Below, one piece after another: positions 24,851 to 55,800 of a stretch of DNA of 64,000 nt. Under the pieces are notes generated by a model. That model was given only the letters and a program-made list of their open reading frames with translations. It had not been told where the DNA came from and did no database searches. Each line of letters begins with the position of its first letter. The first letter of the stretch is position 1. Source of the DNA: Owenia fusiformis (taxonomy: Eukaryota > Annelida > Polychaeta > Sabellida > Oweniidae); NCBI GenBank assembly GCA_903813345.2, contig CAIIXF020000009.1:31842740-31906739 (forward strand), written 5' to 3'. The position numbers and the translations under genes are program-made.

Positions 24851-24859
24851 TTATCTACG

Positions 24860-30290: not shown

Positions 30291-30296
30291 GCGCAG

Positions 30297-30365
30297 CTCT
30301 ATGCATTCATAAGTGTGATATTCATCATCTATGCATAAGAATATCACACTTATGGATGTATAGAG
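30297..30365. ncRNA. 69-nt near-perfect hairpin, pre-miRNA-like
   Basis: Arms of 27 nt (30297-30323 and 30339-30365) pair completely if two G-U wobbles are allowed; the loop is 15 nt. The core arm sequence includes ATAAGTGTGATATTC and GAATATCACACTTAT. Size and shape fit a microRNA precursor, but a tiny MITE would look the same. No known microRNA seed was recognised. Confidence 0.3.
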
Positions 30366-30986
30366 TGCACTTTTCAAGTGATTTCGGACCAAAGTTGTGA
30401 AATGTGAACCCCCTAGACTATGGGGCTGACTTCCTGAGGTGCTCAAAGTAGGCAACCTTAGCATAAATAAAATTCTGGTGGGGTATTCCTCTCGGATGCA
30501 CTATACATATTGTGATGTCAAAGCTATCTATTATAATTAAAAACAAACTTCAAACATCACATCAACAATTTTATTCATCAAAAATGTATATCTAATGTAT
30601 AAGAATAATTCATCATGTATGCCCATAACCATAACTTTGTCAATACTAAGTTACATCCAACCGATCAATTTTTATGGGTAGATTTAATTTTAAAAAATCA
30701 AAGACTGTTCGAAAATCTTTTAACATCTTTTAGCCAAAAGTCTTTCCAAGCGAATATACATACAAAATCAAACTTGAAATCCTTTATGTATTCCTCAGAT
30801 TAATTTTTTAAAACCTACATTAAACCTCAACATACTTTTGGCTTCAAATCAGTTAATACTGACACAGTACATCTTAAGTATACGATGATATATTTTGTCA
30901 CTGTACATTGTCGATGGTTAGGCGTGTATAACAAGCATTTTGGATGAGTATAGTCATTAGACAGTCAATTTCCATTTTAATTTCAG

Positions 30987-32176
30987 AAATCTTTGAATTG
31001 AACCCACTGTACAATATTAAGGACAGGAATATACCAACAGAAATGCCAAAATTCAATTTAGCTGAGTTGTCAACAAAGAAAGTCCTCAAAGAAAGACGTG
31101 ACCATTTGGAGAAAGTGTGTGCCAAACACCCAAATATTTCAAAGCAAAATATGCATGGTGGGTCCATAATGGTTGGAAAACATTTCCCTTTTGTATATTG
31201 TGACATCCCAAAGGTAGGCAGTAGCACTTTCAAAAGAATTCTATATAGCCTCGAAAACAACATATCCAATCCTTACAAAATGATGGCAATAAGACTAGGT
31301 GGTAATGTGCGAGATTATGCTGTCAAAAAAGATGACATAGATGTAAAAATATTGAACAAAATAGAGAATTATACTAGAATTTTAATTGTGCGAGATCCAA
31401 TTAGTCGGCTAATATCTGCATATTGGGACAAAATGTACAGCATCAATCCAACATTTTGGTGCAAGCAGAGCATAGTAGGTACTATATTCAATCTTTATAG
31501 AAGTAATAAAAAAGTGTCAACAGATAACACATCAACATTCACTGGGATTGGTGACATGTCAACTAACAAAGATACATCAATTCCTGAATGCATATGTGAC
31601 ATATCATTTAAAGAATTTTTGGGATTTATCATACAAGAGGATACTGAAGACAAAGTACTCAACCGACATTGGCGCCCCCAATACAAATATTGTAACCCAT
31701 GCAAGGATATAAAATACGATGTCATAGCACATTTAGAAACTTTCAATGAAGACACAGATTTTTTCTTAAAGAAAATAGGTGCAACTAGCCTACAACATGA
31801 TGAACATGAAAGTGATGTCGTAACACGAGAAGTTGACATTCTACTGAGGGGTTACATAAAGCTTAAAAAGAAAACTGTGTGTCAATACAGTATGCAGGAT
31901 TTAATAGTCAGGGTCTTTCAAGGCCTTGTTGCTAGGGGCTACATAAGTCGAGGGACAATGCTACCAGCACTGAATCCAGATCCAAGATTCTACACCAGAG
32001 AAAGATTGTATGCACTTTTCCTAAAACTTTATCAAACATCAAATGGATATAGAATTAGCAAAGCAGAACTTAGGAGAAACATGTTAAAACAAGTGCCTAG
32101 TGATATGATCAAGAAAATCTATGATATGTACAAATATGATTTTGAACTGTTTGGTTATGAATATGAAACACAATAA
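30987..32176 (+). CDS. carbohydrate sulfotransferase (HNK-1/chondroitin ST family), terminal exon
   Basis: This exon encodes the catalytic domain of a Golgi type II membrane enzyme that transfers sulfate from PAPS to glycans. The 5'-phosphosulfate-binding loop is seen as FVYCDIPKVGSSTFKRILYS and the 3'-phosphate-binding motif as ILIVRDPISRLISAYWDKM, both in the order and spacing of the Sulfotransfer_2 family. A CxC cluster (PECICDISFKEFL) and HWRPQYKYCNPC follow, as in CHST8-14-type enzymes. The open frame extends back to an ATG at 30944, but TTTCAG ends at 30986, so translation probably enters by splicing at 30987 (1+2 codon phase). The cytoplasmic tail and membrane anchor are then on an upstream exon not found here. 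AATAAA overlaps the stop codon. It runs convergently against MEIOB. The acceptor glycan cannot be inferred. Confidence 0.85.
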
Positions 32177-32178
32177 AA
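32173..32178 (+). terminator. AATAAA overlapping the sulfotransferase stop codon
   Basis: The stop codon TAA is the centre of CAATAAAAT, so a canonical polyadenylation hexamer starts before the stop. Whether it is used is unknown. Confidence 0.35.
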
Positions 32179-32486
32179 TATAACTGAATCATTTTATGAT
32201 GATTTCCTTGTTACAGTGTTTGTAACTTGAGCATGTTGTGATACTTGGCAGTGACCTCCCCAGCATTCAAGCAAGTGGGCTCAGCATCCAGCTGAGATTT
32301 GGTTAACCAGTTTGCATCCACTAGGAAATCCATTTCCACCAACTTGAAAATGAGGCAAATCATAAAAAATAATCATAATTTGACCTTTGGTCTGAACTGT
32401 GATATGAGAATTTTTCACCTGCACCCACTTGAGAAAAAATCCTGTGGAGAACATTGCTTGGTATATTCAATGTAAAATGTACTTAC

Positions 32487-35400
32487 AATCAATGGTGGTG
32501 CTCTCATAATTTCCTGATGTTTCCTCACTGAACTCAGCAGTCTGGGCAAACTGGTAAAGACTATGTGCCTCCTGGGTGTCTACAAGAATATATTGTAAGG
32601 TATGGTTAGGGTAATTAAATTAAATCTTAGGTTTTGGGATATTTGTAAACTGGTAAAGACTATGTGCCTCCTGGGTGTCTACAAAGGATATATTGTATGG
32701 TATAATTATTTTAAATTTTAGGTTTTGGGATATTTGTAAACTGATAGACAATGTGTGAGCCTCTTGTGTGTCTATATGGATATATTGTATGGTATAGTTA
32801 GGGTAGGGTACAGTAGCTTAATTAAATCTTAGGTTTTGGGATGTTGTATAGCAGATTGATAACATCTGTGCAAGCTTGGCTTTCAGACTGACAGAAGGGA
32901 GCTGAGTGAAGGAAGATGATATAATGGTTGAGGCTGTTTATTACTCATTCTCAGAGTCTTTATTTTAAGTTTTAATTTTAAGAGTCAAATTTTTAATTAT
33001 AAAAACCATATAGGGGAAATAAGGGGGTTCAATAAATAAATGATATTGAGAAAGGATCTGTCACCCCAAGTGTCACTATAAATAAGATGTAAATTCAAAG
33101 TATGAATATGTGTTAAATTCTTATAAAAAATAAAGGTTATATTGTTATCTCACTGACTCCATACTAATTTTGAAATTAAATCAAACCAAGGAGATGTTTT
33201 CAGGCGATTCCAAGAGTGACCCATTTCTTTGCCAAAATTGTGTATTTTTCTCTTAATAATCATTTTTCCGAGGTTTATGAATATATTCACATTCAATATT
33301 GTAACAGTTTCAAGATATATGTATGCCTTATACTTTGGAGGCACTCTAATCTTATATTGATTGGATGCAATTAAAGGTGACCTATTTTTTCATACCATGC
33401 TGTGTATGTTTTTTACTTACTTAATGTTTTGAGGTGGCCTATATATTCAAACAGTGCACTGCTTCCGCAGGCCTAATCCACTCTTATCTATGCCTTAATA
33501 TAAACATTATTACAGAGGGCATAGTTTGGTGATGAAATTAGTGTGGCTTAGGCCTGCGGAAGTACTGTTACAGCGAAGTTAAACAAAAAATATAGCACAT
33601 GATTAGGGCAGCCATTTTGAAATGGTCAAACAATTGATTATTATAAAATGATTACCTGGATTTATGGTGAAGATTGTCTTAGAGTTTGCAGATGCTAACA
33701 TTCCCTTTCTAAAGTCATCATAATTCACTCGAACATCAGCAATAAACAGGACTGAAAAATATGTGTACATCAACAGCACTGAAATATATGTGTACATCAG
33801 TAATGAACAGCACTGAAATATATGTGTAAATCAGTAATGAACAGCACTAAAATACATTTGTAATCAGTAATAAACAGCACTGAAATATGTGTAAATCAAT
33901 AATAAACAGCACTGAAAAATATGTGTAAATCAGTAATGAACAGCACTGAAATATATGTGTGAATCAATAATAAACAGCACTGAAATATATGTGTAAATCA
34001 GTAATAAGCAGGACTGAAATATATATGTAAATCAGTAATGAACAGCACTGAAATATATGTGTAAATCAGTAATAAACAGCACTGAAAACATGTGTAAATC
34101 AGTAATAAACAGCACCGAAATATGTGTAAATCAATAATAAACAGCACTGAAATATATGTGTAAATCAGTAATGAACAGCACTGAAATATATGTGTGAATC
34201 AATAATAAACAGCACTGAAATACATGTGTAAATCAGTAATGAACATCACTGAAATATATGTTTAAATCAGTAATAAACAGTACTGAAATATATGTGTATA
34301 TCAGTAATAAGCAGCATTGAAATACATGTGTAAATCAGTAATTAACAGCACTGAAATATATGTGTAAATCAGTAATGAACAGCACTGAAATATATGTGTA
34401 AATCAGTAATGAACAGCACTGAAATATATGTGTAAATCAGTAATAAACATCACTGAAATATGTGTAAATCAGTAATGAACAGCACTGAAATATATGTGTA
34501 AATCAATAATAAACAGTACTGAAATATTTGTAAATCAGTGATGAACAGTTCTGAAAAATATGTGTAATCAGTGATGAACAGTACTGAAATATATGTGTAA
34601 TTAGTGATAAACAGCACTGAAATATATGTATAAATCAGTGATGAACAGCACTGAGTAATAAACAGAACTCAAAATCAGTAAAAACAGCACTGAAATATAT
34701 GTGTAAATCAGTAATAAGCAGCAATGAAATATATGTGTAAATCAGTGATGTACAGCACTGAAATATATGTGTAAATCAGTCATAAGCAGCACTGAAATAT
34801 ATGTGTAAATCAGTAACAAACAGCACTGAAATGTATGTGTAAATCAATAATAAACAACTCTGAAATATATGTGTAAATCTGTAATGAACAGCACTGAAAT
34901 ATATGTGTGAATCAGTAATGAACAGCATTGAAATATATGTGTAAATCAGTAGTAAACAGCACTGAAATATGTGTGTAAATCAGTCATAAGCAGCACTGAA
35001 ATATATGTGTAAATCAGTAACAAACAGCAATGAAATGTATGTGTAAATCAATAATAAACAACTCTGAAATATATGTGTAAATCTGTAATGAACAGCACTG
35101 AAATATATGTGTGAATCAGTAATGAACAGCATTGAAATATATGTGTAAATCAGTAATGAACAGCACTGAAATATATGTGTAAATCAATAATAAATAGCAC
35201 TAAAATACATGTGTAAATCAGTAGTAAACAGCACTGAAATATGTGTGTAAATCAGTAGTTGATATGCTAGATTTAGTATATTTGTACATCAGCAGTACAC
35301 AGCATTGATATGTATTTGTGCATCAGCAATAAAAACACTGATACAATATTTGTGCATCAGCAATTAAATGCATTGTAATCATATTAATACCAGCAGTGAA

Positions 35401-38400
35401 CAGCCCTGAATGTATTTGCAAATCAACAATGAACGGTAGTAAAATGAAGAAATCTTAAAGCATTAAGTAAGAGCAATGTATGCAATTTAAATATCAAGCA
35501 CGTAAATAGACAGCTGAAAATAATACATGTTACCACAAGTATTAAGAGCTCCATCAAACAGAGGCAACATTTGAAATATCATACAGGGTGGTTAAAAATG
35601 GTGACCCTGTAGCTATTTTCTCAAATCTTTGTCATTTTAGGAAATTACTCCCTGATATTTTGCACATATGTACATCATATTTTGTGACCATCAGACTGAT
35701 CTAGTCATAATGTTAACTTACAGCACTAAAACAACTTGCACTGTTAAACAACATGCTCTAGTGACCACTATTGCGCTGTAGGCAAACCTGCACACGTCCA
35801 CCAAAATTCCGTACTTGACTTCTACCTATGGGGATATGCCAAAAATAGAGTGTACAAGAATGGCCTCAATACAATTGCAGACCACAAAAGGGAGATCATT
35901 CATGTCTTTCATGTCTACCTGCTGAGGAATGCAGTCGGGTCATTGACAACTTAAGGTTTGCCTACAGAGTGATGATAGCCACACCTGGGGCATGTTGTTC
36001 AAAATGCTGTAAAATTGCGACTATCAGTCTGATGGTCATGAAATATAGGAGGATGGTAGGAAATTGAATAATGTACATTCAAATGTGCCAAATAATAGGG
36101 TATAATTCCTTAAAATGACAAAGATATGAGTAAAATACAGGGTTGCCATTTTTGACCACCCTGTGATACTTATGTTAACAAAAAATAACAACAAAATAAA
36201 ATTTTCCTTTTCACAACCGAAGTTGAATTTTGTTCTAAACATAACCAGTTTTCCTCATTTTTGTTTATTGCATTGTGAATCTAGCAGAAAGATGTTGACT
36301 TTGGTTTCATAAAATTGAGACTGGAGTGGTGATTTGTAAAATTCATTTGATATGTATTTTACTGTAGAAAACATCCATGATAATTAGACAATAAACAATA
36401 AATGAAGAAATCCAGCTAGCTTCACTTCCAGCAATTTTTTGAACCTGTATCTTTTGGAGTCCATTGCACGGTCAGATTTATATTTTCTTCATCCCACCTT
36501 TTATGTAAAATAAAAAAAAATATACAATATATACAGGGTGTTTCATAATGACCGTCCCCCCATCAACCAACAATCCCAAATAGCATACCAGCATATGTTA
36601 TATATCATATGAAAGCTTGTTCAATTCTGGACTAATTAAAACAACTTTGGATAAGCTCAACAGTCTTTACAACTTGCTAGATACCTCTACAAAAGGAACC
36701 CATTTTACCTTAAGCATAGAATCCGACAGCTACTTTTTTCCAAAATTAGCCATGTGCCATGCAAACAGCTATGATAACCATGCCTCAATACACTATTATC
36801 TATAGTAATGTACACCTTATAACATTTGATGGATGCTGAGGATATATCCCAATAATATTTGAGAGACAAAAGTATTAAATATTTCAAAGAAATACCCAGA
36901 GAGCTCTTGGTGATTCAATGGATTATATAGCAATATGCTCCTCTCTTTAAATCCATTTGAAATGGGAGCCACAAATCACACAAACTGAGGCTATAGTGAT
37001 TATCAAACACAAGTTTACAAATTATGTTCTCATTGACCAGTCATGCTAAAATTTGGCACATAAGTCCAGAATTGAATAACATTTATTATCGTATATAGAT
37101 TATGGGGCCATGTGGTCTAGGATTGGCTGTGGATGGGGGGACAGTCATTATGAAACACCCTGTACAATGTATATTACATTGTAACTAGTGTGTACATACA
37201 ATGTATCACATAGATGGACATAAATGCAGCCATGCAGAACTACTTCCGAGAAGACAATAATACTTTATGTTTCAATATTTCTCTTAAAAACTGTGTGTAA
37301 CTCAACCTTCAATTTATGCTCATACAAAGTGAGAAATAAGAAGTCTTACTATACTTACAGTACTAAAGCTAGGGTAGTGTTAGTGTCATCAAACAACTTG
37401 ATCTCACAACGCTTGGTATGTCTGCCTGACTTTGTTACAATCTCTTTAACAGCTCCAATCTACAGGTAAATTGCACAAAATATTAGATCTGAGGAAACAT
37501 GTATGCCTAAAATAGCATGCTGGCTTTATATTTGGTATATATAACCTATTCATGAAAATACTGAATCTGTACATGAACTGTCGTATCAAAAATATATCAG
37601 TGTGTAAGGTTGTTAGATGTTATACTATACTACCTTTGTTTCGACGTTCAGTGGTTCATGGTTTTCTTATTGGTTCTCACTGAGAATATTCATAAAAGCG
37701 TGTTACACATATTTACTTTCTGTCCCACTCTAACCCATGAACACACTAAACGTCAAAGCTTTCTAGATAATTCAGTGCAGGTCTGTAGCCAGGAGGGTTC
37801 GCAAGGTTCGGGCAAACCCCCCCCCTGGCCAAAAGTTCTTTCAAAATCATGCAGATTTTCACCATTTTGAGCACTTCTCAAGTGATTTTAGCCATATTTG
37901 GGCCAAAATTGTCATATGTGAACCCCTCCTGAAAATTTTTGTTTGGAAGCTGAACCCCCTTTGGCAAATCCTGGCTACGGGCCTGCAGTCCCAAACCTTT
38001 TCCCAGTGTTGGAAATATTAGACTTACTGATTTAATAGCTACTAGCAGGTTGATCAACTCTCCATTTAAATTCTGTCCGTTAGTGACAACATCTAAGAGT
38101 GTGTAGAAATCATTATGAGGCTTGATAGGGATATGTAACAGTGTGTTATACTCGCTGAGATCCCAATCTCCGTAGAGTTTCACTGTGGAGTGCTGTTCAC
38201 TTATGTTCAATACATATGGACTACAAGAAGAAAACTTGGTACATTTGTGATTCAGGAAAATCCTAATTTTATACTTATGAAAAAAAGAATTGAGATATTT
38301 GATCAAATCATGGGCTTTCAATCTATTGAATGACTATGATCAAATATTGAAGTTTAATATTTAAGATGGATGAGTGTCCAAATTCCATAGGTTCTGGGCC

Positions 38401-40060
38401 TATAAAGATGGCAGCACCAGAAAGAGAAACATAGATAAACACAGATCGATTGCCATGCCATCTTTATTTTAAAATTATTTCTATTTACCTTAGCCTATGC
38501 CAAATTCATTAGAATTGAAAACAGGTAATGTTAACAATCAAAGAATTTTTCTGAAACAAAGTCAGAAATGTTGTAAAAAAGCATCTGAGAGTAAGAGAAA
38601 AAAGCATGATGAGATTAAAAATATGAGCCTATAAAATTATGGCCATTTTTAAAACTTTACCTTGGAGTCCACGGTCTGAATTTATCATCCATGTTATCTC
38701 CTCGTTTAGTCTGTATCTGGGCATTGATCACCTCAACTGGAACAGGAAAACTGGATGACTGACATTGCAGGGGGTTTATCAAGAGACATGAATATATCTA
38801 GCAACACAACACCTAATGACCCACTCAGGCAACTGGAAGTCATTAGCAGTGATTCATTGCTTTAACATACAAAATAATAAATGAACGAAAAAAAGATTAA
38901 TTTCTATATAACATTCTCATAATCTTATTATTTATATCTGAATACTGATAAAGACCAGCCAAAAACCTACCTATGTCTCCAATATGGAACATTGCAGCGA
39001 GATCGTGGATATGTTCTTTGCCACCCCAACATGTAGCATTAATGAATTGTGCAGGACTGTCTCGTATTGAAAAGTTCAACAGGAACCTCTCAGTGCCTGG
39101 ATCTACAGAAGCATATTATTTGTTTGTAGACAATTACATGTAAAATGGATTGAATGAGCACCATTGGATGTACATGGACAGATATATATATTGAAAATGA
39201 GGAGTCCAAAAAATATTTTTTGAAAATACCTTCCTTTGTGCCTAGCTTTTAAAAAAGCCTAATTTGAAGTCCAAAATAAACAACATTTTTGAGATCAAAT
39301 TACTAAGTGTCACCTCTCACATCTGCCAGTGTTACAGTATTTTGATGATGAAACATGGACTTAAAATTTAGTTTTCTGTATTAAATCTCTGGTCACCACC
39401 ATGTTGACTCATAGAAACTGAATTGATGTATATATAAGTAGAAAAAATTGTTCATACTTTTCTTGCTTGTGAAAGATTTAGCTTCTTCCTTGGCCAATAT
39501 CACCCCAACTATCCTCTGAAATCAAACATTTCATTTACTTTAAGGATGATGACCCTTAAACATTTCATTTTTTATTTTACAAGTAGCTAAGAGTAGGCAT
39601 CAAAAGTTTGACGTCGAATTGGAAACTAAATGAATCTAGTTAGGGGGATGGGGTTCAAAGCCATTTCAGTTTACTATCCGACTTTCAACATTTCATTTTT
39701 TGTTATTTCGACTCAGAATGCCTTGGAATGGTTTAAAAACAAACATACTGTATTACCTAATAATTTGTAATTTTAATCATATACTTTTAAATTATATAAA
39801 AGTTCTTATAATGTAGTTATACCTTAATAAAAAATTTATCTTCAAAAGAGAAAAATACTTTGGATACTTACGGTATTTCCTACTCCTGGTGACAAGTCAC
39901 TAATTGCTGCCTTCCCTCCAGAGCTTGGGGCATTACTAGTACTTGGGCCTCCATTGTTCTGTTGATGAGTACGAGGATGTTTATGAGACTGTATCTTTGG
40001 GGCGATCACATCTTCTTGCCAGTCATTTCCAAAGTCAGAGAATCCTGTCGTCCATGCCAT
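32487..40060 (-). CDS. MEIOB: MEIOB, meiosis-specific OB-fold protein (nine exons, 3' part missing)
   Basis: MEIOB binds single-stranded DNA with SPATA22 and stabilises meiotic recombination intermediates; it is an RPA1-like OB-fold protein. Nine GT-AG exons join with matching phases: 40060-39872, 39515-39458, 39102-38971, 38736-38661, 38220-38028, 37459-37359, 36497-36445, 33751-33656 and 32579-32487, giving about 330 codons. Diagnostic blocks in order are RIVGVILAKEEAKSF, NFSIRDSPAQFINATCWG, NISEQHSTVKLYGDWDL, VVTNGQNLNGELINLLVAIK, RCEIKLFDDT, WDEENINL, ADVRVNYDDFRKG and SKTIFTINPDTQEAHSLYQF, each matching vertebrate MEIOB. The N-terminus is longer than in mammals, with a QNNGGPSTSN linker. 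Exons for the zinc ribbon and C-terminal OB fold were not found; the next space holds the convergent sulfotransferase. A CAG acceptor just before the ATG suggests a 5' UTR intron. Confidence 0.92.
32551..32840 (-). repeat. three tandem copies of the MEIOB exon 9 acceptor and exon start
   Basis: Units start at 32551, 32650 and 32741 (99 and 91 bp apart). On the minus strand each contains the intron end, a TAG acceptor and the first ~37 nt of exon 9 (ACACCCAGGAGGCACATAG in the two nearest copies, ACACACAAGAGGCTCACAC in the third). Only the copy nearest 32579 continues into the full exon. Confidence 0.9.
33752..35260 (-). repeat. ~34-bp satellite (about 45 copies) derived from the MEIOB exon 8 acceptor
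   Basis: On the minus strand the unit is ACACATATATTTCAG followed by TGCTGTTCATTACTGATT. The real exon 8 junction reads ACACATATTTTTCAG followed by TCCTGTTTATTGCTGATG. The satellite therefore consists of the last ~15 nt of the intron and the first ~18 nt of the exon, repeated directly upstream of the exon. Most copies retain TTTCAG. Copies vary by substitutions and one- to three-base indels, and a few higher-order duplications are visible (for example around 34740-35130). Confidence 0.9.
35583..36165. mobile_element. mariner-like element remnant in a MEIOB intron
   Basis: ACAGGGTGGTTAAAAATGG at the left is mirrored by CCATTTTTGACCACCCTGT at the right. Inside, the plus strand near 35805-35895 reads LDFYLWGYAKNRVYKNGLN and ADHKREI, the conserved region of mariner transposases around the third catalytic residue ('LdfyLWGy.K..VY'). 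Most of the transposase is deleted. It lies between MEIOB exons 7 and 8. Confidence 0.8.
36534..37162. mobile_element. mariner-type MITE, ends CAGGGTGTTTCATAATGAC, TA duplication
   Basis: CAGGGTGTTTCATAATGACC at the left and GTCATTATGAAACACCCTG at the right are inverted, with G-runs just inside each end and TA on both sides. The 629-bp interior has only short frames. It lies between MEIOB exons 6 and 7. Confidence 0.85.
37778..37985. mobile_element. CAGGYCTGTAGCCAGG MITE in a MEIOB intron
   Basis: CAGGTCTGTAGCCAGGAGG at the left and CCTGGCTACGGGCCTG at the right are inverted. The flanking 5 bp CAGTG and CAGTC match at four positions. The 208-bp body is close to the copies at 59046 and 59430 (for example GCACTTCTCAAGTGATTTTA). 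It lies between MEIOB exons 5 and 6. Confidence 0.8.
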
Positions 40061-40064
40061 ATTT

Positions 40065-40250
40065 CTTTCACTGTAAAGGAATCATAGTCTATTGTAATTT
40101 ATATGTAATGACCCAGGGATGCCCAAGGGGAATGACTTACTTACAAGCATACTGTAACAAGCCAGATAAAGAAATTGAAAGAAAGTGTGCTAAATAGACT
40201 AGATGGGTCCTGGGAGTAGAAATAATCTTGATTTATGTCATCAAATATTC
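40065..40250 (-). repeat. SINE-like body joining the MEIOB exon 1 acceptor
   Basis: The stretch shares TAACAAGCCAGATA, AGAAA..GAAAG and GGATGCCCAAGGGG-type sequence with the tRNA-headed repeat at 48430-48577. Its minus-strand end runs directly into the MEIOB acceptor (TTCCTTTACAG). Part of this junction is also present at 49780-49848. Confidence 0.5.
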
Positions 40251-40254
40251 AAAA

Positions 40255-40545
40255 TTCAGTCAAAAGTGATTTCATATTTGAAATCTACATGCACATTGAA
40301 AATTCAATTTTTTTGAAAATGTGACTTCTAGTTCTGGTTGATTCCCCATAGACCCCATGTTACAAAATCACAAAAAGTGAAATATCTTTTCTTGTATTTG
40401 ACAGATAACACTTTCTTTTCACTGGACATATTTTAATTCGCTATTAGATACATAAGGGTTATATGAAATTTGAACCACTAAAACAGATGTAATTTAAGTT
40501 AAAGGGAACTTTCTACTATATCCGCCATGCTACCTGACCCGAACG
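40255..40545. repeat. dispersed repeat R1, copy 2
   Basis: Same landmarks and order as at 25980 (GTGACTTCTAGTTCTGGTTG, GATTCCCCATAGACCCCATG, ATACATAAGGGTTATATGAA). It sits just upstream of MEIOB and is followed by the tRNA-like sequence. Confidence 0.75.
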
Positions 40546-40559
40546 CATCTGCGTTATTC

Positions 40560-40640
40560 AATGCACCATGTGATAATCAAAACTAGGACCCTTGGATCTA
40601 AAGACTGATGCTCTACCAACTGAGCCGTATAAAGGTTAAA
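40560..40640 (-). mobile_element. tRNA-Lys-like SINE head, diverged copy
   Basis: The minus strand reads CGGCTCAGTTGGTAGAGCAT (A-box region) and CAGTCTTTAGATCCAAGGGT, followed by a decayed B box (TAGTTTTGATTATC). The layout is that of tRNA-Lys, but the T arm is degenerate, so this is a SINE-type pseudo-tRNA. Confidence 0.65.
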
Positions 40641-40849
40641 GCCACTACAGCCTGACACACTCAAATGACCTACCTCAATAAATTCCTGAGTATCTAAGAA
40701 TTCTTTGTAACAAAATCGTATGGGTTAATCCACAGAATGAGGAAAATTTCGTTTTTGATAACAAGTTATTTCAACCTTCAAAATTCCTCCATCTATATCC
40801 AGCTTCTGCAGCACCAGACCAGGATGTTATTTTGGGGATTCCTTCTAAA

Positions 40850-41185
40850 ACCTACTGTCATCTTGAAAAGAAGTGCAATCTTTCTTGATTAAAAACAAAA
40901 ATTTCCTCATTTAACCCATACAATTGGGAATTCATCGACATAAAAAGAATTATAAACTACTCAGGAATTCACTGAAGTAGGTATAGTCTATATCCAATAG
41001 ACTGAATATCCTGAATATCCTACTGCCATCTTGAAAAGAAGTGCAATCTTTCTTGATTAAAAACAAAAATTTCCTCACTTAACCCATACAATTGGGGATT
41101 CATCGACAGAATTCAAAACTACTCAGGAATTCACTGAAGTAGGTATAGTCTATATCCAATAGACTGAATATCCTGAGAATTCAGT
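40850..41185. repeat. ~168-bp tandem duplication
   Basis: 'CTTGAAAAGAAGTGCAATCT', 'TTCATCGACA', 'CACTGAAGTAGGTATAGTCT' and 'ATATCCAATAGACTGAATAT' occur twice about 168 bp apart with very few differences. Confidence 0.8.
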
Positions 41186-41189
41186 CTAT

Positions 41190-42110
41190 TGATCATTATG
41201 TCCCTCCTGTGGGAAAAAACAAGAAATTTCAAGCACAAAATTATCAATTTTAGGAAGCTTCACTTCCCAAAAATAAACATTATAACAATTCAATTAAGTA
41301 GTAAGGTACAATTAAATGCTATAAAAAGTAACACAGCGTATTCACAAATGGAAATAAAGCTAGGGAAAGTAACAAATATGCAAATTAATTTACTCCATCG
41401 GCCATTTTGAATGGCACTTTCTACATATGTGGGCTAAAGTCTGAATATTTTCATTCCAAATTTCAAAAAATTTCAGACTAGAGGATATAGTCTAGAGGTA
41501 GGGAGGGGTTGACTTTTCTCCCATGTCGCAGATCTAACCATACAGTAGTCCAACAACATTAGACCTAGCCCGGGCCTCGTTTCTTATCTGACATGTGTTA
41601 TGGCCCGGCTAGGTCTAACCTCCATGACCATTTTGCCTTTGATGCGTTAATTTAATCGTTCAGCAGGTTTCGACAAGCGGAACTAATTGAACCCTGAAAA
41701 CATGGCAATATTACACAAAGAATGTGATTCAAGCATGCATACATACCTTATAAACACATACACCCTGTCCCGTATCCCCCTTAGACCCTATTGATGCATA
41801 ATTACGAAAATATTGGAGACAGGTTTGAAATATGACGAAAATGTCGGTCAGTTTCGGTAACATCGAAATTGCAAATCGTTTCAGGAATTAACCGTCATCA
41901 CGGCACTGCATTAACGAACAGTTGGTTTGCAATTAATAACTATTTTGCGTGTATATACGCGCTATATAAATTAATCAAAGATACCTGTTATCCTCAAAAT
42001 TGATCTTTTTATCCCGAGTAATCGCGATAATAATTATCAATCTATTTGACAACAATTTCGTTTCGCTGGTAGTTTAATTTTACGATCCGGGACACTCAGA
42101 CGAACAGACA
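41190..42110. other. intergenic region between MEIOB and a plus-strand transcript
   Basis: No coding region is supported. This lies between the divergently oriented MEIOB (minus) and the candidate exons at 42113 and beyond (plus), so it is the likely promoter region for one or both. No TATA box is obvious near either end. Confidence 0.4.
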
Positions 42111-42112
42111 CA

Positions 42113-42512
42113 ATGACGGACATGCGGAAATGTCACTTTAGAGATTGGTAAGTGTAGCCTCATTTTACTCGTATAAATGAACATTTAACACAATAATATT
42201 GTGTTAAATCGCTTGATGTTATGTGTTTTTATATTATTGTCAAGTATCAGTTGCACGTTATCGCGGAAAAATGGTTTCGATGGATTCAGAACTTGCATCA
42301 AAGGAAAGAATAGTAAGGAGGTTAAACTCAATAATGGCCCCAAGAAAATTCCTAATAATAAAGAACGCCATTATTGAGTTTAACGACGTTGCACTAACCA
42401 TACAGCAGCCATTCTGGACATTCAGATTGAAAGTGCTGTCACATTATAAAGTGCAAGGCCCAACTGTTGTAACTCGGGTATTACACGATGTCTGTTGTTT
42501 TGGGTATTTTTG
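42113..42512 (+). CDS. possible two-exon unidentified coding segment
   Basis: A short ATG-led segment (MTDMRKCHFRDW) ends at a strong GTAAGTG donor at about 42149. An acceptor (CAAG or TATCAG) about 100 bp on leads into a long frame: MVSMDSELASKERIVRRLNS and PRKFLIIKNAIIEFNDVALT, continuing to YFWK before a GTATCAG donor. The two frames do not join in phase, so the first exon may be untranslated. A perfect 18-bp inverted repeat lies inside. No family is recognised, and it may be non-coding. Confidence 0.25.
42321..42384. repeat. perfect 18-bp inverted repeat with 28-nt loop
   Basis: GTTAAACTCAATAATGGC (42321-42338) and GCCATTATTGAGTTTAAC (42367-42384) are exact reverse complements, centred in the open frame of the candidate coding segment. 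Confidence 0.85.
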
Positions 42513-42599
42513 GAAGGTATCAGATGACATACAGTGCTGGTATATATTAATTGATCAGTCGTTTAATTGGCATATTTTCTTGAATTTTAACATTTAATG

Positions 42600-43800
42600 T
42601 CCCAAACTCCCACAAACTGCAGAAAAGTATACCCCATAAATCATATTTACCAAAATGAGTGTCTCCAAGGCTTCACACCAGCGTATGTATAATGCATTTG
42701 TCACGAGTTTGAGCTGAAATTTCGCCAAAATGAAGTAGGCTAAGGGTAGTCTCTGCCAGGTTTGTTTATTGTGGTAAGCTTGTAAGTGCTCAGAACCAAA
42801 TAATTCATGTGCGCAAAATAATCAAATAATCTGATTGGTCTAAACTTTGCTGCACATGCGCACAATGTGTGCCATGTTTTTTCTAGTGATTTCGTTTCGT
42901 TTCATGGAGTTTGCATTTCAGTGTAACTTCCGCTAAAATGGCGGACCATGGACAGAATTAACAGGTAAAATCACTTCAGAATTTCAAGAGAACTTTTTAC
43001 CTATAACATGGGCTTTCAACTAGTTGAAAGTTGAAAGCCCATGCCTATAATAGCAAAACTTTTGTTTTATTTGTGCATTGTATCTATCAGATAAGAGTTT
43101 CAGGGGTATGTAGGAAAATTCATTTTGGTAGGAGCACTCTGTTTAGTTTGAAAACGCACCCTTTATTATTATATATCGGCACTGTAGGACCAGTGTTTAG
43201 CTTATCAATGAAGTGAAAAGGTCCGTCTGTGTCCATGGCTGGTCCGTCCTGGTCCGTGGCTGGGTAAACTGCAACCAGACTCCTGAGACTAATGCCCGGG
43301 GACTAATGCAACCAATCCTATGGTTGCTACAATTAATTGGTAAGACTGCACAATTTGCAGTTTGCACACTTCGAAGTGAAAATGCTGATTTTTAGTTTTT
43401 TATCAAAATCTTTCAAATAACTTTACACGCTCTTAGTAGGGAGAATCCATGCACATTACTTGCATTCTATAGGACTGATCGTTAGTGATATGCGTAAAGA
43501 TATATATATAAACGAAAAGTGCATAACTACTCAAGAAAAAGGCAGTAAAAGAATAACAAAATAATATGAAAACTTACCACCGGGCGATAATTGATAACAT
43601 ATGAGTAAGTAGTTTCTAATTTTCAGATAGCTTTGAGCTAAAGTATTATTATATAATTCATTGTAAATAATGGAGTAAACAAGTGCAAAATATATGTCTG
43701 AATTATAATTTATTGCTTTATATGTAATTTGTACATCAATATTTCAAACATTTACCTTTACTTATTTTTCTTTATTGGAAATCAAAACGTATATGCTCCC
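42600..43800. other. non-coding upstream region of the 12-exon gene
   Basis: A short palindrome (ATGGGCTTTCAACT and AGTTGAAAGCCCAT, about 43009-43043) is the only clear structure. The two short plus-strand frames at 43031-43395 carry no recognised motif. The promoter of the gene starting at 43807 should lie here. Confidence 0.4.
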
Positions 43801-43806
43801 TTGAAA

Positions 43807-46800
43807 ATGGAGGAAAATTCAGATTTTTCAACATCTTCAGATAAAACGAATAAAATACCCCAAGCTGGTCGATATTATGCTTTGTATACACTTTTGAATA
43901 ATAAGTAAGTATATCGATATTAGCAGACTAACGCAATGTCCTACTTCATTTCTGTCTAGGTGAAAAATCACTATTATTAAACCGGAAGTAAAATATTTTC
44001 CTGTTTTTATTTATTTTTCACTAGGGGCAATCTGCGCGAGATGGGATAACTCCACAGATGGCGCTAGTGAAAAGGTAGAAGACAAAAAATCTAAATTTAT
44101 AATTGGGATGATGGTTGATTGAAATCAATATTTATCAGTGCAATCACCAGTGAAAATGTACAGATTTTATATTTTATTTTGTTTATCTCGTGTGTATATA
44201 ATTTTACAAAAAGTATGGCGAAATGATTCGGTTCACTTCAAATATTTGACTTTTTGTGACGGTGGTCTTGAGTTTGAAATCTATTGAAAATTGTTTAAAA
44301 TTCGGATAGATGGCGGAAAAAGCAGTCATATCTTTTTTTCTCAATGGGTGTTCTATGCAATTTTTGTTTTGATTTGAAAGGGGACATATGGAGCTATCCC
44401 GTGGTATATGGGGTTATGTACCGAAAATCCTCGTTTTTTCATAATCAGTCCAAAGATTTCAATATTTTCACATTGGATTACATTACAGCATTTATCTGTG
44501 GAATTGTCCCTATTAGCAACATAAGAAATTACTAAAACTGCTATTATTTGGCTCAAAACCACTCAGAATAAGAGATATGTGACGTGAAATGTTTATTGGA
44601 CGATGGCCCATAAGGATCTGATCGGGAGAAACTAAAAAATAATGCTGAATCAGCATTTTTCTTTTTTTGACTTCAAAATTACGGGTATTGACGATTATTA
44701 GGCACTGTTTGGCATTAACCATCGGAAAGTTGCCTGAAATGTCATTGTTTGTAGGCCTGCAAACTGTCATATAAAATATTGAATATTTTTTGCCATATTT
44801 TGCTTGGTAAAGGATGTATTGTAACATTTTTAGATGTCAGAATTTTTCAGCCTAATTTTTCCGAGAGATGTCAACATATTTGAACGAAATAAATGGCTGA
44901 ATTTGATTTTTTTAAGGCTACAATTGGGAATAATTTCACGAATGGTATCTAATTAGCTAAAATTAATCTATAATTTTGATTTAAGAAGAAGTTAAACAAT
45001 AGAAAACCAATGAAAACTGACTAATTTAGTCAGCTTTTGGCTTATTTTGCCCAAAAATTGGCCTAATTAATGTGTCATGGTCCAGTGATTTTTGCCAATA
45101 AAACACTTTGATCAATATAAATAAGTTTGCTCGACTCTTTGGAAGCTCAATTCTATAGATCCGAGTTAATGTAACCATTTAAATGCAGAAATGTTGAATT
45201 CTCAAGAAAAAAGTTTGGCCTAAATTCGAACCACCCAAAGGTTAGTTTAGTACCCATAAAATGCCCAATTGTCTATAGATTATTCTTAAACTGCACAAAC
45301 CATCTTGAAACACTTCATTCTTTCATAAAAATATCATTTTTCACCAAAAATCATCGAACCATGGCACTATTAGGGATAACTCCACAGATGGCGCTAGTGA
45401 AAAGGTAGAAGACAAAAAATCTAAATTTATAATTGGGATGATGGTTGATTGAAATCAATATTTATCAGTGCAATCACCAGTGAAAATGTACAGATTTTAT
45501 ATTTTATTTTGTTTATCTCGTGTGTATATAATTTTACAAAAAGTATGGCGAAATGATTCGGTTCACTTCAAATATTTGACTTTTTGTGACGGTGGTCTTG
45601 AGTTTGAAATCTATTGAAAATTGTTTAAAATTCGGATAGATGGCGGAAAAAGCAGTCATATCTTTTTTTCTCAATGGGTGTTCTATGCAATTTTTGTTTT
45701 GATTTGAAAGGGGACATATGGAGCTATCCCGTGGTATATGGGGTTATGTACCGAAAATCCTCGTTTTTTCATAATCAGTCCAAAGATTTCAATATTTTCA
45801 CATTGGATTACATTACAGCATTTATCTGTGGAATTGTCCCGATTCCATTTTTAGGTTCGGTTTTTAGCGCATGCGCATTAAATCCAGCAATTTAATTGGT
45901 TCAAATTATTATCACGCATGCGCGATTAATAACTTAGTAAGAACATATAATTTGAGATAGATGTCACTTACATTCATTATTTCACAGCAGTCCTTACCCA
46001 TAATGCACCATATATTGTGGGAATATTTTTGTTTTGTGTCAAAACAAAAAGAATACACCCAAAACAAATGTAGTGACATAATATCAACCTGCCCCAGATT
46101 TGTAGACGTGTGTTGTACAAACTTAAACCGAACCGATGGCAGAAAAGCACTTTGAATCATGGGAATGAAATACTTCCTTTAATGAAAAACCGAACCAAGT
46201 AAAAACCGAATCTCGCGCAGATTGCCCCGACTCTTATTTTTCTCAGAATTTAAGGACAGGGTGCATGTTGGGAAATTTTCTGCATTTCTCAATTGAGTCA
46301 CATGTTATTTTTCAAACATGAATAACTCCTTCCCCACATTGTCTACATCTTCCAAGTTTGTACAAAGAGTGCACTTCTGTGCCTAGAAAAGCCTTGTGGG
46401 AAGGTTTGTTTTGTAAAATGTATAAAAAATGAGAAAATTCAGTGAAAAAAATTTCTGAAATTTTTCTGATTTTTTTCACTGAATTTTCTTGTTTTTTATA
46501 GACTTTATCAAAACATTCTTCTCACAAGTCTTTTCTAGGCACATACGTGCACTCTTTGTGCAAAACTGGAAGATATAGACAGTGAAGGGAAGGAGTGATT
46601 CTTGTTTGAAAAATAACATGTGACTCAATTGAGGAATGCAGAAAATTTCCCATCATGCACCCTGACCTTAAACATAATCATATCAGGACTCCACCTGCTA
46701 TGGCTTAGAGAGCAAAGGTTACAGGGCTGTCAACTTGGGACCACCTAATATGAGTGACTTCAAAATGTTGGACACCTAAGTCCAAATCTGAACACTTTTG

Positions 46801-49800
46801 TCCAAATTTTGAACACCTTTGGCCAACTTTTAAACACCTTTGGCCAAAGTTTGAGCACCTTTGCCAAACTTTGATCACCTCACATTTTTCGCGCTCGCTA
46901 CGCTCGCGATGTCGTCAACGGGGGGGGGGGGGGGGGGGTAGGGACGAAAAATTTTCAATGAACATGCGTGACACATACGGGATTCGCGTGACAAATCCGA
47001 ACAAATTGCGTTCGGTTTTTTCCGACGTTCGTATTTTTACCGTGTCGTAAACATATTTCGAAAAAATTTCTACAGAAATATTTTTGCGTGACAATTGCCA
47101 GGTAAAATGCGTATTTTGCGTGACATTTTCTGTCACGCAAAAAAAACTGGCGTGACTTCAAATTCTTCAGCAAATGCGTGACAAATACGCAAATTGCGGG
47201 ACAGTTGACAGGCCTGAGGTTACCACTATTGCTTAGCCCTGGATAGGTCTACATGATGTTTTGACTGAGTTGTCCATGACTACATGACATGGTTTGTACA
47301 TGTATGTGTGCATGCATGTGGGTATATTAGTCTACCCTGCCCTGTCAACCCTCACGCCGAACGGCGAAAAAAGCGACCGCATTTCGTTTGGTCTTTGCAC
47401 GCGATTGCCGATTATGTCATGCATTTGGTACAAAATATGTGTATATATCACGCATTTGTTTCGAAAATTCTTGAAGTGAAAAAATCTAGCCCATTTTGAA
47501 TAACTGCTGTGCTGAGTAGCGCTTATAATAAACTATATATTTGAATCAATACATCATTTATTTGTTGTTACCTTATTTTGATCCTTCAACAGTCTGTTGA
47601 CGCAAATCAATGTTCTATCAGACAACAAAACTTTTGAATTTTGACTTCAGCCATTTTAGGTCTCGCGAGATCTCTTGACTTTCGAAAGTAAAGATTTGCT
47701 ACAAAATAACTCGGGTTAGCTAAATATGAATAGTCACATGATCTTTACTTGAACGGTGTGTCAGCTGGCTTTTGAGCCAGCTGTGTTCAGTAATCATGTT
47801 ACATAAATGTAGTCACATTTCATATAAAAGAACACAGGGCCTCTCCTTACTTAGGTCCAAAGCCATCTCTATATAATTTCCAGCTCTGAGTGAATGTAAC
47901 AGCAGACGTGGTATTCAGTATTTGTAAATCATTGTGACACATGCACAGATGTTACAGCATATTGATACAAAGCATACCTTTATGCATAATATCAGCTCAT
48001 GTCCCGTCTTAATCAATTGTTATATAAGATTTTCATATCAAAATGAACTCTATTTTTCTGCTGAATGAGCTGTATAAATGACGAATCTGTTGAGTTTTCA
48101 AAAAAAAATTTGAAATATCAAAATTCAGACAATCAACAGGACAAGCTCAATAGTCAATATAATAAATATTTATAAAAATTATGAGATAGGAGTTGCAGGT
48201 ATGTGTGACACTTTTTCAAGAGTACATACGAGATCAATGAAGTCACATCATCTAGATGTAAGCTAGAGACTTGAGTAAGGCTCTCCAAGGGGTTTCTTGC
48301 TCTGCCTTCAAGTGTACAATATGTAAAATATGGTATACTGTACAGTGTAACAATGAGGTTTTGCTGGCCAAAATCTGGCGGCAAACAAAATACATTACAA
48401 TTAATACTATTAATACATGAGGGCGCCCCAGGGGAAAGACTAGATTAAACATAGTGTAACAAGCCAGATACAGAAATGAAAGAGTTTGCTAAATTCAATG
48501 CTCTGTGTAGGAATCGAACCTAGGACCCTTAGATCCAAAGACTGATGCCCTACCAACTCAACTGAGCTATAAAGGCTTAAGCTTATCCCGTTCCCGGACT
48601 ATAGTCCTGCACTGATCGCATTCATTTGCCTGTACGATTACAACTTGGGAGAATTATCTACGCCCCTTACACTTAAGATACCTACCTCAATGCATTAAAG
48701 AACTCAAGATGTAACTTCTAATATATTGGAACCGCCGATTGTCTGGGTATATCGGCAGAACGGGAACATTTTCTCTTTTTCATCGAGAGAGATTCCATCA
48801 CTTTTCAAAATGGCGGTTGGATTTAAAAGGGGAATCCCCCGTTTGGCTGTCCCGGATGTAGCCCGGAAGTACCAATATGGAGGAATTTGACGGTTGAAAT
48901 AAGTTAAATGTTACACGCAAATATTGCGATCAAAAACGAAAATGTCTTCGTTCTGCCGATAAACCCAGACAATTGTGGATTCAACTACACGAAAAGAATG
49001 CTTAATTACCAAGGAATCTATTGAAGTAGGTGTCTGAAGTGTAAGATCAGTAAAAAATTCTCCCATGTTGTAATCGCACAGGCAAAAGATTGAGATGTTC
49101 ACAGGACCATAGTCCGGGAACGGGATAAACTTAAGCCATTACAGCTGGGCAGTAGTAGCAACTTGCTATCCAAGGTCCTTACAATACAATACATAGGAGG
49201 CCCAGGAACATGTTATCAGTAATGTAATCAGTAAATAATCAGTGTTTAACTTTGTCCTATCAGGTGCTTACCCATCCATCTACTTATTTTCTGCTAATGT
49301 GTTACCTCATTTAAAAAATTGTATTTACAAAATTATAAAGAACTAATTCACATATTTAAGGTAGTTCTGTACCCTTGAAAACATTGATAGCTTCTTAATT
49401 GGAGTCCTATTTTTTCAGGTTTATATAAACCAATTTAAACATGGTCTTCATCAATATCAATTAGTTTTGCATAAATGCACCTAAAAAATTATTAGTTACT
49501 TGGATTAATGAATTAGTGACCTATATTTGTTTTCTTTTAAAAAGTTGGTCATTGAATTTTCTAAATTTTCATACATTATAGAAAAGTATCATCTGATAAC
49601 TGATGTACATTTATGAACTCTTTGTGTGAAACTAAAAGATGTAGTCTATGTATTAATTTATAATTTCCTGAAATAACATGGGACTCTTCTAATTTTGAAG
49701 CCAATAATGAATATTGAACAAATATTTCACTCTATTGAGGTGAATACCTGTACATCTTTCACAAGTGATATTCCACGAAGCCTTGGGTGGGCATCCCTGG

Positions 49801-52800
49801 GTCATTATAGACTATGATTCCTTTACAGTGAAAGAAATATTTGTTTTATTATATCCCGGGAGCATGGGATATCGCTAGATATCTCACGGTTGTCTTATCT
49901 GATTAGCATTGCCATTGAATATCGCCAGATATCCCACGACATGTGACCCGGTTTTGACCAATCATACTGTCGCTAGCTAGATACACAGGCTGGTATCGAA
50001 ATATTTGTCCGCTGTGATGGAGCATGCTATTTCTCATAAAAACACTAAGAATACTTCACGATTTATTTTTTAACTTATATGCAGGCCCGTAAGACACTTT
50101 TCTCCAAGGGGGGTGCGGTTTTTACTAAAGAGAATATGAAATTGTCAATTTTTTGCCGCGTAAATCAAATCGCGTAAGTCAGAGGGGGGGGCGGTTACTC
50201 CCTATATTGGGGCCATTCAGCCTATTTTGTAGTATTTTATTGTTTTTAGACTAAATATTGAATGAGCAATTTGGAGAAACACTGAAATAGGGGGAAGGTG
50301 TGCTGGAAGGGCATAAATGTTTACCCGAAACTTTTTACCAGTTCAAGATCACATTCAGTGATTTCTGGACACTTTAAGGTGTTTTAATCAATAGAATCAA
50401 TTAAAGAAATTCAGATTTTCAATCAATTTCTTCTTAGGGGAGCGAGTGGGCATCACAGGAAAATTCTACCAATTCAAGATGCTGTCTGATTAATTCTGAG
50501 CACTTTTAATGCGTTTGAGTAAATGAATGCTTTAGTTTTTGGGGTGGGGTACCAGAAAATTTTATGATTTCATTATGTCACTTGGTGACTGTTTAAGTGT
50601 CCAAACTGTCCAATTGTTTTGTATGGGGTGTGAGGAGTGGCCCACTCCCCGTAGAAAATTTTACACTTTTTAGATGCTATTTGGTGCTATCTGGGCACTT
50701 TCAAAGTGTATGAGTCAATAAAAAAATGGGAATTCTTTTGGGGGTGGTGTCAAAGAGGATGAGAGGGTGAAGTGTGGGGTGCCAGAGGGGGACCAAGTGG
50801 TTGTCCCATCGAAACGTTGACCATATCAAGGTGCTATTTGATGATGTCTGGGTACTTTAAAAATGTCTGAGACAATATTAAGTGAAATTCAGAATTTTTT
50901 CACTTGTTTTGTGGGGGATTTGAGGGATGGCCAACTCTCCAAGAAAATTTTTAAAATTTCAAAATGATATTTGGTGCATCTGAGTACTTTTAAAAGTGTA
51001 TGAGTCAATAAAAAATAATTGTCTTTCTCAATTTTTGAGGGTTGTCAGGGGGGGGGGGTGCCAGAGGGGGATGTTGGGTGGGGATGCCAGAGGGCGAGTA
51101 AAAATCATTGACTATTTCAAGGAGCTATTTGATGATGTCTGGGAACTTTAAAAGTGTCTGAGACAATACACAAAATTCAGAATTATTTCAATTGATTTGT
51201 GGGGGATGTGAGTGGTGACCAACCCTCCTAGAAAATTTTACAATTTTAATATGCTATTTGGTGCTTTCTAGGCGCTTTCAAAGTATATGACTCAACAAAA
51301 AATATGAAAAAATCACAATTTTTTCAATTTGAGGGGTTTAAAGGGGGGGGGGGGTGCCAGAGAGCGAGGTGGGGTGGGATGCCAGAGGGCGAGTAAGTGT
51401 TGGTCTCCAAGAATCATTGACTATTTCAAGGAGCTACTAGATTATAGTATTTGATGATGTCAGGGCACTTTAAAAGTGTGAGACTATACATAAAATAAAT
51501 TCAGAACTTTTGTTTTGTGGGGGGTGTAAGAGGTGGCCCCGCCCCCCCCCCCCCCCTGAAAATTTTACAATTTTGAGATGCTATTTGGTGCTTTCTGGGC
51601 ATTTTCAAAGTGTATGAGTCAATGAAAAAAAAGATTCAAAAAAATATTTTCAAAAAAATTTATTTTTTTTCAAATTTTTTTGGGGGGGTTTCAAAGGGGG
51701 TGCGGTCGCACCCATCGCACCCCCCCATCTGACGGCCCTGATATGTTTCATTATACCAAAGAAAATTACTTACTCCATGCAATGGATATATCATTTGCTG
51801 GTAACTTTCACTTCTGTTTGAAGTCCAATTACGCTGGGATGAAAAGCTATTGAAAATGGCGCCGAAGTATCATACTTCAAAATGTACCATTTCTTGTTTA
51901 ACTTTCTAATGGCACGATATAGCGACACGATAATATTTACACATGGTTTCAGCATTACTATGAAGGTATAAATGAGATGTTGATGTATTTGGTCTTTCTA
52001 ATTCTTTTATAAAAAATAATGTTTAATTTTTCTGTCCGCTGTGACGGAGCAGTTGCAAATGTAAACTGTGAAAATGCTCCGTCACATCGGACAAAAAATA
52101 TTCGTATTATTTTTTATAAAAAAATTAAAAAGACGAAATGCGTTAATATCTCATTAATACATTTAGAGTTATGCTGAAAACATATTTCAATATTATCGTG
52201 TCACTATATCATTGCCATTAAAAAGTTTAAAAAGAAATGGTACATTTTAGAGTTTGATACTCTGGCGCCGTTTTCAATAGCTTTTACTCCTAGCGTTATT
52301 GGACTTCAAACAGAAGTGAAGGTTACCCACAAATGAATACCCATTGCATGGAGCAAGTAATTTTCCTTGATGTAACGAAACATATGAGTTAAAAAATAAA
52401 GTGTGAAGCATTCTTAGTGTTTTTACGAAAAATAGCATGCTCCGTCACAGCGGACAAATCTTTCGATACCAGCCTGTGAGATAGTGATATAATAATATTT
52501 CTTATTAATCCAGAATTACCTAATACATTAAAGAAAATGAAAGGGAATGTTATATAGTGGCTATAGTTTCAACCAATCAGAATTCTTATTTACTGTTCAT
52601 TATAAAACAACAATGAATGGTTTTAGTGAATAACTGTTTTGTTCAAATCCGTGACTGAAACCAAGACTCAATACTGTAATATACAAATATGATGAATTCC
52701 ACTTGTTCACCAGTAGACAACAATCTCAAGTTTGAATTCATTATTCCTTTAATGTAATTAAGTCAATTATTTTCAGAAACAGTCAGTCAGATGAAAACAA

Positions 52801-55800
52801 AACTGAGAAAGGAAGTGAATCAGAATCGGGATCTGAAAATTCCAGCAATAACATAACACAAGAGAAAAGGTAGGCATTCATCATTGGCTACATAGATGAT
52901 CCCTATTTCATTTAGAGTACAGACTCTATCTAGAATATACTAAATAAACCCTGATTTATATTATGAATTTTGTCTTACAACAATCTATGATTTTTTATTC
53001 AATTAGCGTATCTGTGGTTGCTAGTAACTTGACTGCAGATGGAGAGACCCAATTAAGAAAGTATGTCACTAAGCGTGTTGCTAAGGGTAACCTACATCCT
53101 GGCATTGGAAGCATCACCAATCTGGATATTGGGTAAGTATCGTATAGTTCACAGTATATCTGTACAATTATGGGGATTTAATAGACTTAGAATGCCCATA
53201 ATGTAATTCTCACATATCTGATTTTTATATCTTTAATTTCATTATATTTTACTACAGTTTTAATGTTAGAAATAATCACAGACTCTTGCCAGATTGTTTG
53301 TAGTAGTATCAGTAGCTTCAGAATAATTCCTCACTTTATTTTACGCTGTCTCATCTTGAAAAGGGATTGTGCTACTCTCCAGAAGGATATTATCAGAATT
53401 AGTAGAAATTATTTTTAAAAAGCCAATATTTTGAAGTAAAAATATGAGATGTCTGTTCAAATATAGAAGTTATTGACAATATGAGGTGCAGAAATGTCAA
53501 AAATCTTTAGAATAGAATTGATCAAAGGATTATCTTGAGAGTCAGAACTGTTAGACTTTTGTTGGAATAGGCATCACATTGAATGATGAGCAAAAATATT
53601 GTAAAATTGTGACGATTTTTTTTATCTCTTTCCTATCCATTCTACTTTCTATTAATGATTGTATTTCAGACCAGAAGAGTCAACAGTGATATCATGCTGT
53701 TACTACTGTATATCAATGATTGTATTTTAGACCAGATGAGTCAACAGTGACATCATGCTGTTACTACTATATATCAATGATTGTATTTTTGACCAGATGA
53801 GTCAACAGTGACATCATGCTATTACTACTATATATCAATGATTGTATTTTAGACCAGATGAGTCAACAGTGACATCATGCTGTTACTACTGTATGCTTCA
53901 GAAGGATGTGACATCATCCGATGACAGCGACGTCTTAGAATGGATGGTTTGTTACATGACTATGGGACAGCATTCTCTCGACCAGTATCCTTTATACTGC
54001 TTTATAGATAGTCAGGGGGTATCTCTTATAGGGTGTTTTGAATGCAAAAAATGTAACTTTATGTGATTAAAGTAAACCGAATTCTTGTTGTGTCATAAGA
54101 AATCACAAAAGGCAACATTAGAAAACACAAAACAACTCAGTGACTTTAAGTTATAAATATATGTCTCATTGTTTAATATGGTAATATTTCACACTGTGAC
54201 CCAAAAATGTAATACTTGATTTTATTTTTCATAATGTTTATTATAAAAATGTTTTTCCTTAATTCGTGTTATATTCCAAACTGAGCTTGACCAGTATAGC
54301 CATGGCCTTGTCAGACATCTAGATGAGAAGGTAACAAAAGTTAAATTTTATTATTTTCTACATTTACAAATGTTTTAATGTATTTTAATTTGATGATCGA
54401 TTCTGGGCTTCCTGTTCTATTTTCTATTGTCCTACAATTCTATTCAAACATCTGAGTTACTATGTTTTATATTACAGGGAGTTGAAACAAATCCTTTGCA
54501 GGAGGTTTGTTTTTTAATATGAAATAATGTATTGCTAGTCTTGCTTCGTCAACATTAGTTTTTTTAGATTCATATACGCGTATCTATGTTTTTATTTATA
54601 TTTTTTGTTCAGGTTTGAAAGTTATTATATTCATTTAAAACCTACGAATGGCTAGACTTCATGCATGGTTTTATGATTGTGTATCTCACTTAACACTAAT
54701 GCATGTATGAAAATTATGATTTGCTTGTCATAGTATGCCCAATTTCAGTTTTAATGCCCATAATTGAGTAAAAGATGGCAGCAATAGGCCCTGTATTGAT
54801 TTGTACATTTTGATGTAATCTGAATGTATTGCAAATTAAGAGTTTTGTTTTACAAAGCGCATGCGTTAGTGTGTGCTGTGGTTATTTTACTGTCTAGTAA
54901 TTGAAAGTTGAATTGAAGAATACCAAAGGTAAAAAACCCACAATTATAGCATGTAGATTTTATCATGAAGAACAATGGTGACATTTGATTATAGTGATCA
55001 TGATCGATCATGGTATTTAGATCATGATCAGCCAGCCCTTGTACTCACAGAACATAACTGTTATTTCAAAGAATTGTCTATTAATAAGCTACATTAAAAA
55101 TAGTAATTTACTCATTTTAAGTTTGATATAATTTTGTACATACACTGTGTAATGTGTTCATGCATCATCACTGGTAATGTTGCAGATGACAGAACTGACA
55201 AGCAGAGTGGGCCCCTATCTAGATGCTTGGTATGATGCTTCCATACAGTTTATGTCCTACCCTGTACAGTGGCTATTTAATGACCTAAAATTTCTACTCA
55301 GTGCTGTAAGTTAAATTCTATACATATTTACCATATTCTGCACAAATAGGGCCTCGGGCACTTTTGAATTCAAATTTCCATTGAAAACCATTACAAAGAG
55401 GGCCAAGAAACCAATCAATTTTACAATTGTAAGGTCAGTAATAAAGAATTTTAGATCATTTCAGGCATTTTATTGACATGTATAAGTAAAACTCATTTCG
55501 AAGAGTCGCTACATGACATAAAGTCATATGACAACCCAAATATTACAATGATTTTGCTATGTGATAAAAGACCTTATGAAATACAATGGGAATACAATGT
55601 ACATACATGTACAATCTTTTTGTCTTTCAGGCATTATCAAGTAGTCCAATTAGTTACGGCTGTAGTGAAAAGGAAAAGGATATTATAACCAGGTAATTAT
55701 TGTTTAGCGTCAGGGGTTCCATTTGGAGAAGGCAACAGGCAATTTTCTTGTGGTTGGTTTTGCACGTTTTGAGAAATCGTTTGATAATCTCCATGTTTAA

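Follow-up and report, generated by a model that had tools for sequence, protein, structure and literature searches.

Tandem copies of splice acceptors in two Owenia fusiformis genes, most likely mirage-type minisatellites

In a 64,000-nucleotide stretch of the genome of the annelid Owenia fusiformis (the window), three splice acceptors in two genes each stand at the end of a tandem array whose unit comprises the end of the intron, the acceptor AG, and the start of the exon. The acceptors belong to exons 8 and 9 of a MEIOB gene and to exon 4 of a C17orf75/Njmu-R1 gene, and the gene models and TRF agree on all three, as the initial annotation of this DNA had proposed. Its further points, that the units differ in length and that no single repeat family seems to have spread, also hold: the units are 34, 93–99, and 61 bp long, with 49, 2, and 3 extra acceptor positions, respectively, and a by-eye comparison found no sequence shared between the three. 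We consider it very likely that these are mirage minisatellites, that is, products of ordinary local tandem duplication over an exon boundary and later unequal exchange, which are tolerated since the copy on the donor side keeps the coding exon.

The two genes and their arrays

The MEIOB model, built from reading frames, lies on the minus strand, extends from 40060 to 32487, and joins nine exons into a single open frame. Its N-terminal part matches the Pfam family OB_MEIOB_N (E 5.1e-31), and its segment TVLFIADV resembles TVIFASDV, which we take to be the human MEIOB sequence. The query for the Pfam and PDB searches had a wrong start of exon 4 and lacked exon 7; the best PDB match with it had an E of 0.16, and nothing credible was returned. 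C-terminal exons of MEIOB were not found on the minus strand in 20000–32486, and a human segment used as query gave, as the better of two matches, an E of 4.9. The gene may be truncated here, or it may contain one very long intron. Past exon 9, on the opposite strand, positions 30932–32176 hold a reading frame of the sulfotransferase family (Pfam PF03567, E 8.8e-40).

The C17orf75/Njmu-R1 model, likewise built from reading frames, spans 52777–58842 on the plus strand, where 11 exons were seen. Its identity comes from Pfam PF15053 and from the solved Njmu-R1 protein (PDB 24id_C, E 5.2e-33), and its exon numbering fits that of the initial annotation if one upstream exon, outside the model, is exon 1. 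Intron 4 (53985–54281, plus strand) has GT-AC ends, a donor GTATCCTTT, and a branch-like TTCCTTAAT at 54255, and it looks U12-type by motifs that we assume to be characteristic of that class. The AC at 54281 is the frame-keeping end among those tried, and splicing to it gives ELDQY, where the solved Njmu-R1 protein has ELDKY. No Rfam family was matched at gathering scores. Two further tandem repeats lie in and near this gene. One, at 56948–57116 in an intron (56937–57126 at its widest), is a perfect 84-bp duplication that overlaps no exon of either model and appears recent because its matches are 100%. The other is a 27-bp minisatellite downstream of the gene (59984–60544), with about 21 copies at 97%, open on both strands.

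The exons and their arrays are as follows.

33656–33751, minus strand: MEIOB exon 8, real copy (AG acceptor between 33752 and 33751, GT donor, nine-exon open frame)
33752–35460, minus strand: array of 34-bp units, each running from the intron end through the AG into the exon start, with 49 full decoy acceptor positions and a degenerate distal end (wrap-around alignment, TRF)
32487–32579, minus strand: MEIOB exon 9, real copy (splice sites, nine-exon open frame)
32580–32852, minus strand: two upstream copies of the exon 9 acceptor and exon start, with decoy exon starts at 32678 and 32771 (repeat alignment)
53853–53984, plus strand: C17orf75/Njmu-R1 exon 4, real copy (splice sites, frame, PDB match)
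53642–53852, plus strand: three upstream 61-bp copies of the acceptor and first part of exon 4, with exon starts at 53670, 53731, and 53792 (TRF, repeat alignment)

At exon 8, TRF reports a period of 34 with 43.9 copies over 33772–35257, and the wrap-around alignment carries the array beyond this, to about 35431; the 49 full decoys are accompanied by 50 upstream exon-start segments. At exon 9, the TRF row (32612–32800) has a period of 91, and the copies are spaced 99 and 93 bp apart. At C17orf75 exon 4, the row covers 53642–53894 with a period of 61 and 4.1 copies. By our own reading of the alignments, the exon-derived part of the unit is about 19–20, 32, and 33–42 nt, respectively. The acceptor AG is intact in 40 of the 49 full decoys at exon 8, in both decoys at exon 9, and in two of the three at exon 4, where the copy at 53792 has TG instead.

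The arrays stand apart from the other splice junctions of the two models. For a 40-mer centered on the junction, the best ungapped match within 1.5 kb was 40/40 at C17orf75 exon 4, 34/40 at MEIOB exon 8, and 30/40 at MEIOB exon 9. None of the remaining 16 acceptors or the 19 donors exceeded 25/40, and no donor-side copies were seen at these donors. These matches, like the counts of tandem loci, placements, and positions given below, used edges of 53985/54286 for C17orf75 exons 4 and 5, later set at 53984/54282.

Descent from the exons and history of the arrays

The arrays descend from the exons, because these exon starts are coding and because in the 34-bp array two exon-like variants are restricted to the ends. 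At unit columns 4 and 10, the exon-like bases are carried by 7 of the 50 upstream exon-start segments, and these seven are the five farthest from the exon and the two nearest to it. None of 200,000 shuffles was as extreme, with the caveat that both columns were picked post hoc after inspection of the array. A third base that distinguishes exon from array, at column 28, does not follow this rule and tells against it: a single one of the 49 decoys has the exon-like C, and that decoy sits deep in the interior. The coding exon starts and the exon-like edge segments also lead us to reject the alternative that an intronic minisatellite invaded the exon. CYYC, encoded inside the 61-bp unit of C17orf75 exon 4, is common to the solved Njmu-R1 protein.

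The 34-bp array is thus uniform in its interior and divergent at its edges. Among lags of 1–12 units, identical pairs are most frequent at a lag of six (four pairs), as unequal exchange would be expected to leave. The simplest history is one in which the interior grew from a derived unit and the edges kept older states, comparable to the globin mirages (PMC3087553). For the 61-bp array, the word CTACT occurs in the intron at 53642 and in the first exon copy at 53703, 61 bp apart and hence separated by exactly one unit, a pair that would fit duplication aided by matching bases; at MEIOB exon 9, a comparable pair of words could not be discerned.

The course of events that we favor is accordingly simple in outline. 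A short tandem duplication, probably arising by slippage or by end joining aided by a few matching bases, would happen to span an intron–exon boundary, and the copy number would later be altered by unequal exchange or slippage. The arrays would be tolerated because the donor-adjacent copy holds the whole coding exon and the additional ones fall within what is spliced out as intron; use of the last acceptor would then yield a normal protein. The last copy would be favored by its closeness to the donor and to the exon body. Such a history does not need a process directed at acceptors.

Chance, acceptor bias, and decoy function

The recurrence of acceptor-spanning repeats is probably not pure chance. 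When single units were placed at random, the probability of covering at least three acceptors was 0.0009 with the 4 gene-body loci and 0.008 with the 16 window loci; for any junction, it was 0.0066 and 0.03, and when the units were restricted to the ten no longer than 100 bp, the values were 8e-05 and 0.00064. These tests are post hoc, the hypothesis having been drawn from the same data, and the 16 loci and their unit lengths were listed by hand from TRF and a tandem scan, some of them approximately; the scan itself gave 25 stretches, nine of which had no pair inside the stretch. Comparison with intronic points, which had been suggested as a check on enrichment at acceptors, cuts both ways within the window: repeats were found at 3 of 19 acceptors (15.8%) and at 1975 of 11,545 intronic points (17.1%), hence no enrichment, but outside the arrays the intronic rate was only 138 of 9346 (1.5%). 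The points behind the 17.1% rate come mostly from these very arrays. Among exonic points, 23 of 1325 (1.7%) were repeated.

Whether this recurrence reflects something particular to acceptors is a separate matter. The initial annotation suggested a local process acting at 3′ splice sites, such as the repair of breaks linked to R-loops or the branch point. In a wider form that includes breaks at the polypyrimidine tract, duplications would start at acceptors more often than elsewhere. In its favor, three of the four tandem loci (shift of 20–400 bp) in the two gene bodies span an acceptor, the random placement of units gives the low acceptor probability of 0.0009 noted above, and none of the 19 donors carries copies. 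Yet the contrast of 3/19 acceptors with 0/19 donors gives p = 0.23, mirages at donors are also on record (PMC3087553, PMC3902484), and the idea was prompted by the data on which it was tried, from one window and two genes. Acceptor specificity is therefore not established, and the claim is not upheld by these data. All three cases do lie at acceptors and the placement probabilities are low (8e-05 to 0.03), so some bias may exist; still, we regard targeted mutation of 3′ splice sites as unlikely. The same holds for the bolder proposal that tandem duplications arise preferentially at the 3′ splice sites of this lineage, beyond what tolerance would produce, leaving the spliceosome to pass as many as 49 surplus acceptors in a row; we think this improbable.

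A different reading is that the extra acceptors have a function, as decoys or as alternative sites through which splicing is tuned, and have been retained for it. The AG does persist in most copies, and the unit adjoining MEIOB exon 8 (33752–33778, minus strand) is shortened to 27 nt, so that its acceptor is the sole one among 47 upstream AGs that is both in frame and open; its use would add nine residues. On the other hand, the G of the decoy AG ranks third least conserved among the 34 unit columns of the exon 8 array, and the absence of the AG from one of the three 61-bp decoys likewise speaks against retention. Use of an upstream AG nearly always shifts the frame or adds a stop: reading from any of the 12 upstream AGs examined at MEIOB exon 9, or of the 12 at C17orf75 exon 4, meets a stop codon before the exon ends, and at exon 8 the same is true of, or the frame is lost with, 46 of the 47. 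From these reading frames, the upstream AGs look like a liability, and the suggestion that decoys were retained is not supported; we judge it very unlikely. Acceptor strength, scored with a small home-made matrix from 15 acceptors, varied among the loci and does not always favor the last copy, which counts against the favored reading. At exon 8, 30 of the 47 upstream AGs score at least as high as the real acceptor, at C17orf75 exon 4 the real site scores 10.3 versus 11.3 and 10.3 for two decoys, and at exon 9 the real site is best (9.7 versus 7.2 and 3.6).

It could also be asked whether assembly error created all or some of the arrays, the 34-bp one in particular, the more so as one lancelet mirage seems to have been misassembled (PMC3087553). 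The copies differ from one another, however, with a mean column conservation of 0.906, which is not what an assembler duplicating a single read would produce; moreover, lancelet repeats of this kind in PGBD5 were confirmed by re-sequencing (PMC3902484). We give this explanation hardly any weight, but the copy number of the arrays could be wrong.

Relation to known mirages and implications

Mirages have been described in amphioxus, in Adh3, the globins BflGb6 and BflGb9, TnC, and PGBD5, as minisatellites whose tandem unit (10–72, 60, 108, or 150–160 bp) crosses an exon–intron boundary, at either the 5′ or the 3′ end of the exon (PMC3087553, PMC3902484). Many but not all copies retain the AG or GT splice signals, and array length is unstable between haplotypes and, at Adh3, somatically as well (PMC3087553, PMC3902484). 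The edges of the BflGb6 mirage escape homogenization, and RT-PCR suggests, according to the authors, that the lancelet genes are spliced regularly (PMC3087553). The three Owenia loci resemble these in having units that run across a splice site from the intron end into the exon start, in their variable unit length, and in the presence of AG in most but not all copies; the edges of the 34-bp array escape homogenization as in BflGb6 at columns 4 and 10, though not at column 28. The lancelet mirages occur at both exon ends; here all three lie at acceptors (3 of 19, with 0 of 19 donors), and one array has 49 decoys, compared with at most seven copies in the portions seen of PMC3087553 and PMC3902484. 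The genes, MEIOB and C17orf75, are also different.

A related case is known from potato, where a tandem duplication crossing an acceptor created an intron (PMC4974935). The Owenia arrays share the duplication over an intron–exon boundary at the acceptor and differ in that their reading frames are explained without a new intron; PMC3443670 and PMC2812944 provide broader context. A strict literature search for duplicated acceptors on a genome-wide scale found none, and print may still hold some. Among the matches listed for MEIOB together with minisatellites, mirages, or intron–exon boundaries, MEIOB appeared only in a review of the human germ-cell genome, which is not proof of absence. The G+C content of amphioxus, about 41%, is higher than that of the window (33.7%). 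The structure is of a known kind, here in a lineage other than the lancelets, as the lower G+C content would also suggest, and MEIOB and C17orf75 are not among the genes named in the parts of PMC3087553 and PMC3902484 available to us.

With the present loci, MEIOB and C17orf75, both conserved genes, contribute three further clear mirages, and the 34-bp array has far more copies than the lancelet cases considered here (PMC3087553, PMC3902484). They offer natural tests of how the spliceosome chooses among many similar acceptors, and mirage arrays are possible raw material for new introns. If the bias toward acceptors were true across the genome, it would point to a source of mutation linked to splice sites.
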